A DNA stretch of 57,457 bases, from positions 1-57,457 of IMG/VR virus record IMGVR_UViG_3300032224_000443; one strand, written 5' to 3'. Both the position numbers and the translations under genes were made by a program. The notes below the pieces were generated by a model. It ran no database searches, had not been told where the DNA came from, and saw only the letters and a program-made list of their open reading frames with translations. Origin of the DNA: a virus. Shown piece after piece: positions 1,318 through 11,259 of the stretch (within the stretch, counting starts at the first letter, position 1; each line of letters opens with the position of its first letter).

Positions 1318-1553
1318 TGGCAACTTATACGTTCTATAATACTAAGACAGAAGAATATTCAGACATTAGCATGGCAATGTCTGAATTAGACACCTTTAAA
1401 GAAAACAATAAACATCTCAATCAAATTCCTTCTATGACTGCTATAGCAGACCCAACCAGATTAGGCCTCAGAAAGCCCGATGCTGGTTTTCGTGATGTTC
1501 TTAAACGTGTGAAAAAAGCTAGTGGGAGGGGTAATAAAATTAACACTTGGTAA
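1317..1553 (+). CDS. FmdB-like small regulatory protein of T4-like phages
   Basis: A 78-residue protein beginning MATYTFYNTKT and ending GFRDVLKRVKKASGRGNKI. The start (a short beta strand pair) and the C-terminal FRDVL-basic-INT pattern match the small proteins annotated as FmdB-like in T4-like cyanophages. True FmdB proteins carry a CxxC zinc ribbon; no cysteine is present here, so only the outer fold is kept and the regulatory role is doubtful. It overlaps the preceding stop by one base and is followed by the PhoH-like gene. Confidence 0.55.
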   Translation: MATYTFYNTKTEEYSDISMAMSELDTFKENNKHLNQIPSMTAIADPTRLGLRKPDAGFRDVLKRVKKASGRGNKINTW

Positions 1554-1569
1554 CTTAAAAAGGAAACCC

Positions 1570-2361
1570 ATGGAAAAGACATCTCGTTCAGAAAAAAGAC
1601 AAAACAGACAACAAAAAAGAAACGAGCAACAACAAGTAAAAAATAATATATTACTTAAAAATATTGGTCCTAAAACAAAAAATCAGGAGACTGTATTTCG
1701 AGACTTTTCCAACGGTAAACATTTACTAGTACACGGGCTTCCTGGAACTGGTAAATCATTTATTTCATTATACCTTGCATTAGCAGAGATAGAACAGTAT
1801 AAAGAATATAAAAACGTCACAATTATCAGATCCACAGTACCATCTAGAGATATGGGATTTCTTCCTGGATCAATTAAAGAAAAATCAAAAATATACGAAG
1901 CACCATATCAAGCAATATGCGCAGAATTATATGGCAGAGGCGATGCTTACGAATTGCTTAAATCAAAGAACATTATAGATTTTCAAACATCTTCTTTTCT
2001 AAGAGGATTGACATTGGACCATACAATTATTATAGTGGATGAATGTCAGAATATGACATACTCAGAACTATGTACTATTATCACAAGAGCAGGTAATAAT
2101 GCCAAAATTATTTTCTGTGGTGATTATAGACAAACAGATTTAAAATACGATGACGAAAAAGTTGGTATATTTCATTTTATGAATATTTTAAATAAAATGA
2201 CAAAATATTTTTCTTGTATTGAATTTGATGAACAAGATATTGTTCGTTCTGGATTAGTTAAAGATTTTATTATTAAAAGATCACAATATGAAAACCCTAA
2301 ACAAAGAATTATGCCTGTGAATGCTGCAAACTTTACTCAAGAATCGAAAATCTTTCACTAA
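1570..2361 (+). CDS. phoH: PhoH-like P-loop ATPase
   Basis: A 263-residue protein. I place the start at ATG 1570, preceded by AAAAAGGAAA; an upstream GTG at 1522 would overlap the previous gene and add an unconserved stretch. A basic N-terminal tail (about 1-35) leads into the PhoH domain, with Walker A GLPGTGKS at about 56-63, Walker B IIIVDECQN at about 153-161, and a sensor-like IIFCGDYRQTDL. PhoH ATPases are widespread in marine phages and are linked, without firm proof, to phosphate stress and RNA metabolism. The end overlaps the nuclease gene by 41 nt, so the two are probably co-translated. Confidence 0.88.
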   Translation: MEKTSRSEKRQNRQQKRNEQQQVKNNILLKNIGPKTKNQETVFRDFSNGKHLLVHGLPGTGKSFISLYLALAEIEQYKEYKNVTIIRSTVPSRDMGFLPGSIKEKSKIYEAPYQAICAELYGRGDAYELLKSKNIIDFQTSSFLRGLTLDHTIIIVDECQNMTYSELCTIITRAGNNAKIIFCGDYRQTDLKYDDEKVGIFHFMNILNKMTKYFSCIEFDEQDIVRSGLVKDFIIKRSQYENPKQRIMPVNAANFTQESKIFH

Positions 2362-3016
2362 ATTAAATTTAACTTTGGATGATACCTTAGAACAAGTTAA
2401 TACAGATTCCGGCAGGTATTATAAAACTCCTGCCGGAGCTCTTTATCCTTCTGTTACTACTGTAACAGGACTTATGGGTCTGGAAGGTATTAAAGCATGG
2501 AGAAAGAAAGTTGGAGATGAAGAAGCTAATCGAATTAGCAGCAAAGCAGCAAGCAGAGGTACTCGAATACATCAACTCTGCGAAGATTATCTTAACAATG
2601 CTGACATTGATATCTCTAAATACGATTATAACGATGCGTTGAATTTTGAAGTATTCAAACCGCTATTAGATAATAATTTAGATAACATACATCTTCAAGA
2701 AACAAGAATGTATTCTGATTATCTAAAGATGGCAGGCACTGTAGATTGTGTTGCTGAATGGAAAGGTAAACTTGCCATCGTTGATTTTAAAACTGCGCGT
2801 AAAGCTAAAAACAGAGAATATATTACAAATTATTTTTGTCAAGCATCAGCCTATGCTATTATGTACGAAGAGCTTTTTAAAATTCCAGTAAGTAGAATTG
2901 TTATTCTTATTTCTGTCGATAACGACGAACCCCAAGTATTTGAAGATAGACGAGATTATTATGTACCTGAATTGCTTAAAGTTCGTGAACAATATAGACA
3001 GCAATATGGAATATAA
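2321..3016 (+). CDS. PD-(D/E)XK nuclease (RecB/Cas4-like exonuclease)
   Basis: A 231-residue protein starting inside the end of phoH. It has the layout of the PD-(D/E)XK exonucleases found in marine T4-like phages: an N-terminal part with YPSVTTVTG, a basic helix with RGTRIHQLCEDYL, then GTVDCVAEW (Asp about 141), IVDFKTAR (motif DFK about 155-157) and the QASAYAIMYEE helix (about 174-183) with the conserved Gln and Tyr. These give the metal-binding Asp-Asp-Lys set. It probably acts in phage recombination or host DNA breakdown. No iron-sulphur cysteine cluster is visible, so it is RecB-C-terminal-like rather than Cas4 proper. Confidence 0.78.
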   Translation: MLQTLLKNRKSFTKLNLTLDDTLEQVNTDSGRYYKTPAGALYPSVTTVTGLMGLEGIKAWRKKVGDEEANRISSKAASRGTRIHQLCEDYLNNADIDISKYDYNDALNFEVFKPLLDNNLDNIHLQETRMYSDYLKMAGTVDCVAEWKGKLAIVDFKTARKAKNREYITNYFCQASAYAIMYEELFKIPVSRIVILISVDNDEPQVFEDRRDYYVPELLKVREQYRQQYGI

Positions 3017-3018
3017 TT

Positions 3019-3744
3019 TTGCAATCTAATAATGAAATAATAGCTTATTATATGAATACTGAAGCTTCTCTTATATTAGATAGGGGAAGATTTGAACGAG
3101 AATGGATGGAAGAATCTAAAGCATACAGATGCCTTCCTTTAAGTATTGCTAATCAACACGGATGGGCATTTTATTTAAAAGATGATATACAAGTATCGTG
3201 GGATGGTACAAATAATTTTGATGGTGTAAGAATACATAAAAATTATGGTAATATTGCTAAAAGTATATTTGGTAAAGGTATAATAACATTTAGCATCGAT
3301 TGTATAATCAGAACTCCTCCTAACTATAACATCTATATTACTGGAGCTCCTAATTTTGTTAAACCTGGAGCGCATCCATTATCTGGTGTGTATGAGGCAG
3401 ATTGGGCACCATATACGTTTACAATGAATTGGCAGTTAACAGATGGTTATAGAGTAATTAATTTTAATAAAAACGATCCTATATGTTTCTTTTTTCCAGT
3501 ATTAAGAAATACTGTAGAGGATATGATAATCATTAAAAAACGCATTGATACTAATCCTGAATTATTAAAACAATATAATCAATTTTCAAATAGCAGATCT
3601 AAATTTATAGAAGATAAAATAAAGACGCCCACCTCAGATTGGCAAAAACATTATTTTAAAGGACAATATCCTGATGGATCAAAATGTCCGTTTAATCATC
3701 AAACCAAATTAAATATCAAAACAATAAATGAAAATAATAGTTGA
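3019..3744 (+). CDS. DUF6065 family protein
   Basis: A protein of 241 residues if it starts at TTG 3019, or 230 residues from ATG 3052. I prefer the TTG because the residues EIIAYYM before the ATG fit the start of the DUF6065 family. Family marks are R-E-W-M-E near residue 26, CLPLSIANQHGW, the WDG motif, a central ITGAPNFVKPGAHPLSGVYE and a C-terminal WQKHYFKG. Function is unknown. Homologues are found in marine phages and bacteria and look like soluble beta-rich proteins. It ends just where the promoter before the tmRNA begins. Confidence 0.65.
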   Translation: MQSNNEIIAYYMNTEASLILDRGRFEREWMEESKAYRCLPLSIANQHGWAFYLKDDIQVSWDGTNNFDGVRIHKNYGNIAKSIFGKGIITFSIDCIIRTPPNYNIYITGAPNFVKPGAHPLSGVYEADWAPYTFTMNWQLTDGYRVINFNKNDPICFFFPVLRNTVEDMIIIKKRIDTNPELLKQYNQFSNSRSKFIEDKIKTPTSDWQKHYFKGQYPDGSKCPFNHQTKLNIKTINENNS

Positions 3745-3771
3745 CATTTATAATATAAAATGTTATAAATA
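3741..3771 (+). promoter_or_regulatory. Promoter before the tmRNA gene: sigma-70-like plus T4-late-like
   Basis: TTGACA at 3741-3746, a 17-nt spacer, then TATAAA at 3764-3769, a near-perfect sigma-70 promoter. The -10 region is also part of TATAAATA (3764-3771), the T4 late promoter consensus. The expected start, about 3777-3780, lies just before the tmRNA acceptor piece. The -35 box overlaps the stop of the preceding gene. Confidence 0.7.
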
Positions 3772-3843
3772 TAATACTGATGTTGTTGACATCTAGTAGA
3801 ATAGACATTCTGGACGCGGGGGCAGTACCCGCCGCCTCCACCA

Positions 3844-3929
3844 TGGATACATCGGATAGAACCGCTGAGTCGTTTCGAACTACTGGAGCTACTTTATGTA
3901 GGGTGTCGTAAGGACGGTGTATCTTTGAT
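3844..3929 (+). other. Intervening segment of the permuted tmRNA
   Basis: 86 nt between the encoded CCA end and the GGGGGCG start of the coding piece. In two-piece tmRNAs this segment is cut out by RNase P and other processing enzymes, leaving two RNAs joined only by base pairing. No reading frame or tRNA is visible in it. Confidence 0.75.
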
Positions 3930-3993
3930 GGGGGCGAAATAGGATCGACAGGTGTAGTAAAGACAAGATCGAGACTGAAGTAAACTCGTAAAT

Positions 3994-4038
3994 GTAAACG
4001 ACAACAATGCATATGGTGCTTACGCTCTAGCAGCTTGA
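3994..4038 (+). other. tmRNA tag-peptide reading frame
   Basis: The frame reads GTA then codons for NDNNAYGAYALAA and TGA 4036-4038. The NDN start and the ALAA end are hallmarks of ssrA degradation tags; the final LAA is recognised by ClpXP and the NDN part by SspB-like adaptors. The resume codon appears to be GTA (Val), though the exact resume position was judged by eye. The stop codon sits in a helix, as in known tmRNAs. Confidence 0.85.
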
Positions 4039-4137
4039 GTCACATGAGCTTCGGAGAGTGTGCTTGGAAACAGAAACACTCTTCACTATATTATGTAGAA
4101 TGGAATGTATAATTTATATAATTTGATAGGAGATAAC

Positions 4138-4500
4138 ATGGCTTTAATATTAAAAGGCCCTTCATCTACAGCACAAACAACTGATGAAGGTTCAGAAAAA
4201 ATTGAAACTTCTGTTCCACAACAACCAGAAGTAAAAGAAGCAAAAATAGGAATGGTCGGTAAGATTCTTGGTAGAAAAGAAGCTGTTAACCATCCTTCTC
4301 ATTATGGTGGTAAGGATAATCCTTACGAGGCAATCAAAGTTATAAGAGCATGGGAACTCAGTTTCTCATTAGGCAATACAATAAAGTATATTGCACGTGC
4401 TGGTAAGAAAGATCCTTCTAAGAGAATTGAAGATCTTCATAAAGCAATGTGGTATTTACAAGAAGAAATTAGTAACGAATACGAAAAAACTAACAAATGA
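4138..4500 (+). CDS. DUF3310 protein
   Basis: A 120-residue protein from ATG 4138, chosen because GATAGGAG lies directly before it; an earlier ATG at 4105 falls next to the tmRNA and lacks a binding site. Residues 1-48 are a low-complexity Pro/Glu-rich leader. Residues about 50-115 form the DUF3310 domain, with NHPSHYGG, ELSFSLGNTIKYIARAGKK and EDLHKAMWYLQEEI. DUF3310 is the domain seen in T7 gp1.7-like nucleotide kinases and in many phage proteins; alone it has no firm function. The stop overlaps the gp33 start (ATGA). Confidence 0.78.
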   Translation: MALILKGPSSTAQTTDEGSEKIETSVPQQPEVKEAKIGMVGKILGRKEAVNHPSHYGGKDNPYEAIKVIRAWELSFSLGNTIKYIARAGKKDPSKRIEDLHKAMWYLQEEISNEYEKTNK

Positions 4501-4730
4501 ATTTAAAAAATATCAAAACTTCATCTGATTTTGCAAAAGAGATCTCTCAATTAGTAACAGATAAAGATATAAGTTTTTTTGATGCAGTAATACATTATTG
4601 CGAAATTAATAATCTAGAAGTAGAAACGGTTGCTTCTATGATTAAACAAAGCACAATATTGAAATCTAAAATACAATATGAAGCTGAAGAACTTAATCTT
4701 ATGAGAAAGACAGCGCGACTACCAATATGA
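4497..4730 (+). CDS. gp33: gp33-like late transcription co-activator
   Basis: A 77-residue protein with DAVIHYCEINNLEVETVASMI in the centre and EAEELNLMRKTARLPI at the end, matching the short gp33 of marine T4-like phages. In T4, gp33 bridges the late sigma factor gp55, the RNA polymerase beta flap and the sliding clamp. Position supports the call: gp33, gp59 and gp32 follow each other as in T4. It overlaps its neighbours by 4 nt on both sides. The TATAAATA elements in this window are the sites such a system would use. gp55 is not in the window. Confidence 0.75.
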   Translation: MNLKNIKTSSDFAKEISQLVTDKDISFFDAVIHYCEINNLEVETVASMIKQSTILKSKIQYEAEELNLMRKTARLPI

Positions 4731-5299
4731 AACCATTTGAAGCTTATCAACTTTATTCAGCTGTAAAGAATCACTTTACAACTGACTCTTATGATTATTT
4801 TAAATATAATGGTAAAGTAAACGCATCAGAACATACGTTTGAATCTCGTAAAGACAAATATATGTTTTACAAATTATCTAAGCATGAAGATCCTCTAACT
4901 TTTTTAGTTGCTAATTTTTCTGAAGGTAAAAAAGTATGGGTTGGAGATTTATTTGGAGCGGATAAAGAAATTCTTTACAATGATTATTTGCGTAGAAAAC
5001 AATCACTAACTTATATCTTTCAGTCTGATATTGATAATCTTTTGGAAGACTTTGATGCTAATTTCAAAGTAGAAGAAGGTGACTATCCTCATCTACTTAA
5101 ACTTCTTACTCGTAAAAAAATAACCAAAGAAACTTTCATTATAATTCAAGATTGTGTTCGTTTTTTTGGTTCTTGGAATAAGAAGATTACAGATCCAGTT
5201 CTATGGCCTTCTATAGCTATGAACTGCAAGAAATTTAGGCCTTTCATGGAATATGAAAAGACTAAATACTGCGACATGTTAAGAAAGAAATTTACTTGA
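4727..5299 (+). CDS. gp59: gp59-like DNA helicase loader
   Basis: A 190-residue protein, close to the 217 residues of T4 gp59. The N-terminal FEAYQLYSAVKNHFTTDSYDYFKYNGKV is characteristic (an HMG-like fork-binding domain), followed by KDKYMFYKLSK, FLVANF and a helical C-terminal half ending with aromatic and basic residues. gp59 loads the gp41 helicase onto forks covered with gp32; gp32 is the next gene. It overlaps gp33 by 4 nt. Confidence 0.85.
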   Translation: MKPFEAYQLYSAVKNHFTTDSYDYFKYNGKVNASEHTFESRKDKYMFYKLSKHEDPLTFLVANFSEGKKVWVGDLFGADKEILYNDYLRRKQSLTYIFQSDIDNLLEDFDANFKVEEGDYPHLLKLLTRKKITKETFIIIQDCVRFFGSWNKKITDPVLWPSIAMNCKKFRPFMEYEKTKYCDMLRKKFT

Positions 5300-5372: not shown

Positions 5373-6284
5373 ATGACTATTAATTTTGAAGCACTCAAGC
5401 AGAATCGTAAGTCTTCTTTCGATAAGCTAACTAGCGAACTTTCTAAACTCAGCCAGAATCCCAATCAGGAAGGTGGCAACAAAGACGACGACCGTTATTG
5501 GAAGCCAGACGTAGATAAGGCCGGTAATGGTTATGCAGTTATTCGTTTTCTTCCAGCCCCTACAGGAGAAGATGTTCCTTTCGCGCGTATCTGGGACCAT
5601 GGGTTTCAGGGTGCTGGCGGCTGGTACATTGAAAAGAGCCTAACAACTCTTGGCCAAGCAGATCCAGTTTCTGAATACAACTCCAAGTTGTGGAACTCTG
5701 GTATTGAAGCCAACAAGGCTATTGTACGCGCACAGAAGCGTCGTTTATCTTATTACTCAAATATTTTTGTTGTTAAAGATCCTACTCGTCCAGAAAACGA
5801 AGGCAAGGTATTCTTGTTCAAGTATGGTAAGAAGATCTTTGATAAACTTAATGATGCTATGCATCCACCTGCACAATTTGAAGAGAAGCCAATTAACCCA
5901 TTTGATCTCTGGGATGGTGCAAACTTTAAGTTGAAGATTCGTCAGGTAGATGGTTATCGTAATTATGATAAGTCAGAGTTTGATAAACCAGGTCCATTGT
6001 TTGCAGATGATGCAGATTTAGCAAAGAATATTACTAATATTCATTCTTTACAGGAACTTATTGATCCTAAGCATTTTAAGTCATATAATGAACTTAAGGC
6101 AAAGTTGGAAAAGGCTCTTGGATCTTCTACAACTACAGCATCTTCGCCAGTACAACATGAGGAAGAAGAAGCATTTCAGATTCCTCAGAAGTCAGCTCCA
6201 ATGAAGGAAGCTCCAGTAGCAGCTGCACCATGGGATGAGGATGATGACGATCTTAGCTTCTTTAAGAAGTTAGCTTCCGAATAA
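5373..6284 (+). CDS. gp32: gp32 single-stranded DNA-binding protein
   Basis: A 303-residue protein, as long as T4 gp32 (301). The N-terminal basic LKQNRKSSFDKL is the cooperativity region. The core has PFARIWDHGFQGAGGWYIE and the SEYNSKLWNSG segment, then KKIFDKL and the NPFDLWDGANFKLKI OB-fold strands. Residues about 265-303 form the Pro/acidic tail with DEDDDD, which in T4 docks gp59, gp43 and others. The T4 zinc ligands (three Cys) are absent, as in cyanophage gp32. The start has GGAGA at a good distance. The stop is 2 nt from the end of the opposite-strand tape measure gene. Confidence 0.92.
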   Translation: MTINFEALKQNRKSSFDKLTSELSKLSQNPNQEGGNKDDDRYWKPDVDKAGNGYAVIRFLPAPTGEDVPFARIWDHGFQGAGGWYIEKSLTTLGQADPVSEYNSKLWNSGIEANKAIVRAQKRRLSYYSNIFVVKDPTRPENEGKVFLFKYGKKIFDKLNDAMHPPAQFEEKPINPFDLWDGANFKLKIRQVDGYRNYDKSEFDKPGPLFADDADLAKNITNIHSLQELIDPKHFKSYNELKAKLEKALGSSTTTASSPVQHEEEEAFQIPQKSAPMKEAPVAAAPWDEDDDDLSFFKKLASE

Positions 6285-11251: not shown

Positions 11252-11259
11252 TATAAATA
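11252..11259 (+). promoter_or_regulatory. T4-type late promoter for the gp48 operon
   Basis: Exact TATAAATA 30 nt before the gp48 start, in the 50-bp gap between divergent genes. No -35 box is expected for this class. The ribosome binding site AGGAG follows at 11273. Confidence 0.75.

Follow-up and report, generated by a model that had tools for sequence, protein, structure and literature searches.

Stuck ribosomes are freed by tmRNA. A two-piece ssrA gene has been described in the T4-like Methylophilales (OM43) phage Melnitz (MZ577095-MZ577098), published in 2022 in a study that also counted, in 18,146 genomes of phages, 53 tmRNA structures of the two-piece kind (PMC9004378), and a tmRNA database lists 79 unique phage sequences, the permuted share not being given there (PMC11915505). 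Here we describe a locus from an IMG/VR virus record that is itself a fragment; "the window" denotes the whole 57-kb stretch of DNA that was analysed. Positions 3781-4090 of its plus strand hold an intact alpha-type circularly permuted (two-piece) tmRNA gene (Table 1). As in Melnitz, the gene is an alpha-type two-piece tmRNA of a T4-like phage that adjoins a late-transcription coactivator and gp32, and the gene order is the same in outline. A preliminary description of this DNA had considered such a gene unusual in a T4-like phage, a view that does not survive the Melnitz publication (PMC9004378) and the presence of the alpha-type tmRNA signature in at least 120 IMG/VR stretches. The anatomy of the gene, its base pairing with covariation, its synteny and a promoter-like sequence make it highly probable that we are dealing with an intact, functional-looking alpha-type two-piece tmRNA of a T4-like phage, with a dual promoter, that would tag proteins with the help of the host's SmpB and AlaRS.

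The covariance search with the Rfam alphaproteobacterial tmRNA model, which the preliminary description had suggested as a check, gave a clear answer. As reported by cmscan, RF01849 matches the gene at 3781-4090 with 127.5 bits (E 1.8e-34; gathering score 50), and RF04321 matches the same gene with 106.6 bits (E 7.6e-20; gathering score 47). Both scores are far above the gathering scores and far beyond chance; the ends 3781 and 4090 are approximate. Direct reading bears out the layout described earlier, with the acceptor part and its encoded CCA first, followed by an 86-nt intervening segment (IVS), GGGGGCG and a tag frame ending in ALAA. The pairing of the two ends over 7 bp with a G3-U70 pair is equally sound, as GGGGGCG and CGCCTCC pair at 7/7 positions, G3-U70 included, and both this acceptor stem with its G3-U70 and the T stem are conserved across 78 distinct viral sequences. 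A helix that joins the pieces, another point that had been named for checking, is present as well: in H2 of the window, CAG 3949-3951 pairs with CTG 3810-3812, and the first three pairs of H2 are all canonical in 86/97 viral sequences with their own partner versus 38% with swapped partners. The pair types alternate between CAG/CTG and CTG/CAG, with CGG/CCG, CAC/GTG and CTA/TAG less frequent in the viral genes, and H2 is backed by covariation across phages. Duplex energies of the two pieces, computed without constraint, gave no clear distinction between own and swapped partners, unlike this register-specific comparison, and RNAalifold recovers the acceptor and T stems and misses H2 because the MAFFT alignment is poor at that helix.

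Table 1. Features of the tmRNA locus and its neighbours in the window.
Feature	Position	Strand	Evidence
PhoH	1522-2361		profile matches
PD-(D/E)XK exonuclease	2321-3016		profile matches
DUF6065 protein, directly 5' of tmRNA	about 3034-3744		PF19541, 240 bits
Composite promoter: TTGACA 3741-3746, 17 nt, TATAAATA 3764-3771	3741-3771	+	direct reading
Acceptor piece: joint-helix 5' half, T arm, 3' acceptor strand, ACCA	3781-3843	+	RF01849, RF04321, direct reading
T arm GCGGG-GGCAGTA-CCCGC	3816-3832	+	direct reading
Acceptor-stem 3' strand CGCCTCC	3833-3839	+	direct reading
Discriminator A (3840) and encoded CCA (3841-3843)	3840-3843	+	direct reading
IVS, 86 nt, presumably removed	3844-3929	+	direct reading
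Coding piece: 5' acceptor strand, H2 strand, tag frame, 3' terminal stem	3930-4090	+	Rfam, direct reading
5' acceptor strand GGGGGCG	3930-3936	+	direct reading
Tag frame V-NDNNAYGAYALAA: resume codon GTA at 3994, stop TGA 4036-4038	3994-4038	+	direct reading
3' terminal stem of coding piece	about 4053-4085	+	
DUF3310 protein, first gene 3' of tmRNA	4138-4500	+	PF11753, 53.3 bits
gp33-type late-transcription coactivator	4497-4730	+	PF16805, 66.6 bits; phrog_254 late promoter transcriptional regulator
gp59-type helicase loader	4727-5299	+	PF08993; phrog_269
gp32 single-strand DNA-binding protein	5373-6284	+	PF08804, 147.6 bits; phrog_224

Two observations speak against a functional two-piece tmRNA. 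One is that ARAGORN, also proposed earlier as a check, calls no tmRNA gene in the window; the program likewise misses the permuted tmRNAs of four relatives (L057, L128, L010 and L137) and calls that of the close relative L127, which has a GCA resume codon, so the miss reflects the sensitivity of the tool. The other is the resume codon, which is GTA where relatives have GCA, the usual tmRNA resume codon. Two relatives (L127 and L057) encode the window's tag with GCA, and the GTA may be a substitution private to the window or a sequencing artefact. The tag itself has a degron-like end, ALAA, as do 78/112 of the viral tags read; a further 15/112 end in RLAA (together 93/112). Some tags end in AMKIAA or AMKVAA instead (e.g. 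ARTASNDNVPYSAMKIAA; L128-L132, L048, L087/L200 and L059), and the phages that encode them are close to phages with ordinary tags. A search of bacterial genomes for DNA encoding the window's tag (NDNNAYGAYA) gave no match and hence pointed to no host.

The neighbouring genes (PF16805, PF08993, PF08804 and PhoH) agree with the earlier assignment to a T4-like phage, and the order PhoH / exonuclease / tmRNA / gp33 / gp59 / gp32 is, by sequence comparison, conserved and T4-like. Relatives of the tmRNA-neighbour genes of the window or Melnitz, sought with 17 query proteins (matches to the DUF3310 query, which was out of frame, were disregarded), are encoded by 70 of the 112 alpha-type loci analysed, and many IMG/VR loci have the tmRNA together with gp33, gp59 and gp32 relatives. 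When 12 gp32 loci were scanned with Rfam, seven had a permuted tmRNA; of these, L152 matches the beta type too, and L139 is truncated by the end of its contig. Among the remaining five, four carry tRNA genes 5' of gp32. In these four (L146, L147, L149 and L156) there is no permuted tmRNA at that place, the tRNA of L146 and of L149 being about 1.7 kb 5' of gp32. A full two-piece tmRNA thus appears to be a regular part of the replication/late-transcription block in many aquatic T4-like phages. None of 50,697 phage records matches, at E 1e-3, the DUF6065 protein of the window. Three phage loci (L127, L128 and L135) have DUF6065 neighbours 78-86% identical to it, yet their IVS and tags differ, and another (L405) has the IVS family of the window's relatives (family C, below) but a different acceptor piece; such differences among close relatives suggest that parts of the tmRNA gene recombine. 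In L048 (4238 region) and L405 the acceptor piece has a classical TTCGAAA T-loop although the coding piece is of the alpha type, and one acceptor-stem pair of L048 is mismatched (6/7 pairs). These mixed tmRNAs may be recombination chimaeras or misassemblies.

Two promoter readings are superimposed upstream of the tmRNA: TTGACA-N17-TATAAA fits sigma70, and TATAAATA fits the T4 late type. The latter motif is the T4 late promoter motif, and 17 nt is the spacing used by sigma70. At spacer 17, TTGAC accompanies 51/89 tmRNA-linked TATAAATA motifs, compared with 3/170 elsewhere in the same viral loci. The composite is found in 0/97 upstream regions of bacterial ssrA genes, and TATAAATA anywhere in a wider upstream stretch in 1/97; the AT content is lower in the bacterial set (50% vs about 66%), which accounts for part of the motif difference and leaves the exact spacing unexplained. 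Within the window ATAAATA is depleted (18 observed vs 48 expected), 7/9 TATAAATA sites directly precede a gene or the tmRNA, and among ten upstream sites inspected only that of the tmRNA has TTGACA at sigma70 spacing. Sites of TATAAATA or xATAAATA just 5' of genes lie at 11252/11273, 18755, 37687/37717, 43634, 44049 and 54691, and two pairs of these motifs are divergent. The strong promoter claimed in the preliminary description stands as a sequence (TTGACA-N17-TATAAATA). We infer that it can be used early and late, by the sigma70 polymerase of the host as well as by the late machinery of the phage, which in the T4 type is gp55/gp33/gp45 and of which the window encodes a gp33-type member, and it seems built for expression all through infection. 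Since T4 late promoters work without a -35 element, the promoter might instead be late only, or else early only, with the other half of the composite a coincidence. TTGAC at spacer 17 is indeed missing from 38/89 tmRNA-linked TATAAATA motifs, and in Melnitz an early promoter only was assigned, by BPROM (PMC9004378). We nevertheless regard a single-type promoter as rather unlikely, because TTGAC sits exactly at the sigma70 spacing in more than half of the tmRNA-linked motifs, and TATAAATA is kept as well. No terminator-like site was found 3' of the tmRNA in the window, so gp33, gp59 and gp32 may share the tmRNA promoter. We found no earlier description of what looks like an early/late composite promoter at viral tmRNA loci.

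That the gene is a captured host gene or an attachment-site remnant without a role is very improbable, even though host ssrA is a common integration site (PMC9004378, PMC11915505). The Rfam scores, the covariation of H2 and the conserved locus all agree with the earlier judgement that it is intact and not a remnant: it occupies the same position beside gp33/gp59/gp32 in many distinct phages and has a phage-type promoter upstream. A different possibility is that the tmRNA, charged and bound by SmpB, acts as a decoy or regulator that redirects host rescue, for example by means of a degron of the phage's choosing that alters the set of proteins broken down. The tags of close relatives do differ (ANDNNAYGAYALAA, ARTASNDNVPYSAMKIAA, ANDNFVSQDYALAA), as if under changing selection, and the phage tmRNA of DS6A, which has no CDS, inhibits the host tmRNA (PMC11915505). 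The coding piece in the window is complete, however, and most phage tags end like ordinary degrons, in ALAA or RLAA, which makes a decoy improbable, if less so than a remnant.

The IVS is presumably removed, and its two ends can pair. In the window GGATACATCG at one end pairs with CGGTGTATCT at the other, and pairing of the ends over at least 7 bp is found in 90/92 viral IVS 50 nt or longer (on average 10.6 bp with their own partner vs 5.8 bp with swapped partners); a weaker form is seen in 10/18 bacterial IVS of at least 50 nt. ACCA lies opposite TGAT in 104 viral loci, so that in the precursor the acceptor stem can continue across CCA into the IVS as one almost uninterrupted hairpin. The 86-nt IVS of the window is no more stable overall than shuffled versions (82/500 equally good), and within it only the closing stem is supported, via the cross-phage comparison. 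Most of the 96 bacterial IVS sampled are about 25-70 nt long, and the viral ones are widely spread, up to 266 nt. We found no earlier description of this near-universal end pairing, or of the one-long-hairpin precursor it predicts; RNase P and tRNase Z have been suggested as the enzymes that process a precursor of this kind (PMC3985003). Transcription from both promoter types, processing, charging and tagging could then proceed as follows. The tmRNA would be transcribed from a promoter open to the sigma70 polymerase of the host and to the phage's late machinery, and the precursor would fold as one long hairpin (acceptor stem, ACCA, IVS stem), from which the IVS would be freed by an RNase P cut 5' of G3930 and 3'-end processing at CCA. 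The two pieces would be held together by the acceptor stem and H2, host AlaRS would charge the RNA with alanine via G3-U70, and the charged RNA would, with host SmpB, append the ALAA-terminated tag to nascent chains that have stalled. No SmpB was found in the 57-kb window, as expected if that of the host is used; the window being a fragment, this absence says little. The purpose may be to maintain ribosome recycling while host and phage mRNAs degrade during infection. As the preliminary description had proposed, the phage might govern ribosome rescue in a host among the alphaproteobacteria. The reason why lytic phages carry ribosome rescue becomes directly testable with a tmRNA that regularly belongs to this gene block and has such a promoter.

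The window's IVS contains no ORF of at least 25 aa. The 47 non-redundant viral IVS of 100 nt or more include 32 with an ORF that starts with ATG and spans at least 70% of the IVS, compared with an average of 2.9 and a maximum of 7 in dinucleotide shuffles, and several protein families recur. Family A is a 35-aa protein (MDEVLLWQFRQRCVEYICINNYSIYHARLFMMGAK) present in 72 viral loci, in 48 of them inside a tmRNA IVS (permuted tmRNAs of L022, L092, L096, L097, L099, L118 and L332-L375), the remaining copies being without a detectable tmRNA. Most of the nested copies end with a TAG stop codon situated within the mature coding piece (GGGGGCGAAATAG). Family B (38-44 aa, with a hydrophobic stretch: MKNPLVKKISV..WSICADIILIAG..; also MKNPLVKKISV..WSICAD..) ends on TGA at the last IVS bases (L032, L051, L058, L068, L079, L108 and L119), and several of its loci have a further short, overlapping ORF (MxEMxGDSDEEPSSKKNIGGNV type) in a different frame. 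The 54-aa family C (MIYVRDEG..; MIYVRDEGQKIKNGINFYPLSSNHVGFVIRLYNN..) occupies the IVS of the window's close relatives (L128, L130, L131, L132, L135, L048 and L404-L419), and homologues 49-56% identical occur in two contigs (L421 and L422) with no tmRNA in the flanks read. None of the IVS ORF families has a match in phage isolates, Pfam or PHROGs. With dN/dS about 0.11 for both family A and family B, the nested genes appear to be under purifying selection, and the IVS ORFs look like protein genes nested inside a tmRNA gene, an arrangement for which a search of open-access text found no paper. It is possible, rather than probable, that the permuted tmRNA of aquatic T4-like phages is a composite device with an early-plus-late promoter and an IVS that serves as an exchangeable compartment, a plain hairpin in the window and a nested small-protein gene in many relatives, in which maturation is coupled to small-protein expression. 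Ribosomes translating the nested gene would reach the RNase P site, and in family A maturation would strip off the stop codon, leaving the IVS as a nonstop message and hence a tmRNA substrate. If translated, the ORFs of these relatives would be genes hidden in an RNA gene and easily missed by annotation; they are the most surprising lead of this analysis, albeit one absent from the window itself.

How, then, does the locus compare with known systems? Melnitz has the same kind of promoter (TTGAC-N17-TATAAATA), unremarked in the original description (PMC9004378), and differs in its 142-nt IVS and its tag (ANDNYVPVDYALAA, vs an 86-nt IVS and VNDNNAYGAYALAA in the window). It also has a glutamine riboswitch (RF01739) 3' of the tmRNA, whereas none was found at window positions 3700-4200 even at E up to 1 with the same library that finds that of Melnitz; this riboswitch is not a defining feature of the Melnitz-type group (PMC9004378). 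The chromosomal ssrA of alphaproteobacteria (RF01849, Caulobacter type) resembles the window gene in gene order, G3-U70 acceptor stem, H2, T-loop type and an ND-rich tag ending in xLAA; bacterial alpha-type genes are unlike it in their promoter, none of the 97 having the composite, and in their mostly shorter IVS. Two-piece tmRNAs are also present in four alphaproteobacterial phages (Mesorhizobium phage Cp1R7A-A1, DSS3_MAL1, Erythrobacter phage vB_EliS-L02 and Rhodobacter phage RcSimone-Hastad), which have no matches to the neighbour proteins of the window or Melnitz and no TATAAATA upstream. The window gene is therefore an addition to an already published class, two-piece phage tmRNA itself not being new, and what the group appears to have in common, in a form for which we found no description, is its composite promoter and its IVS architecture.
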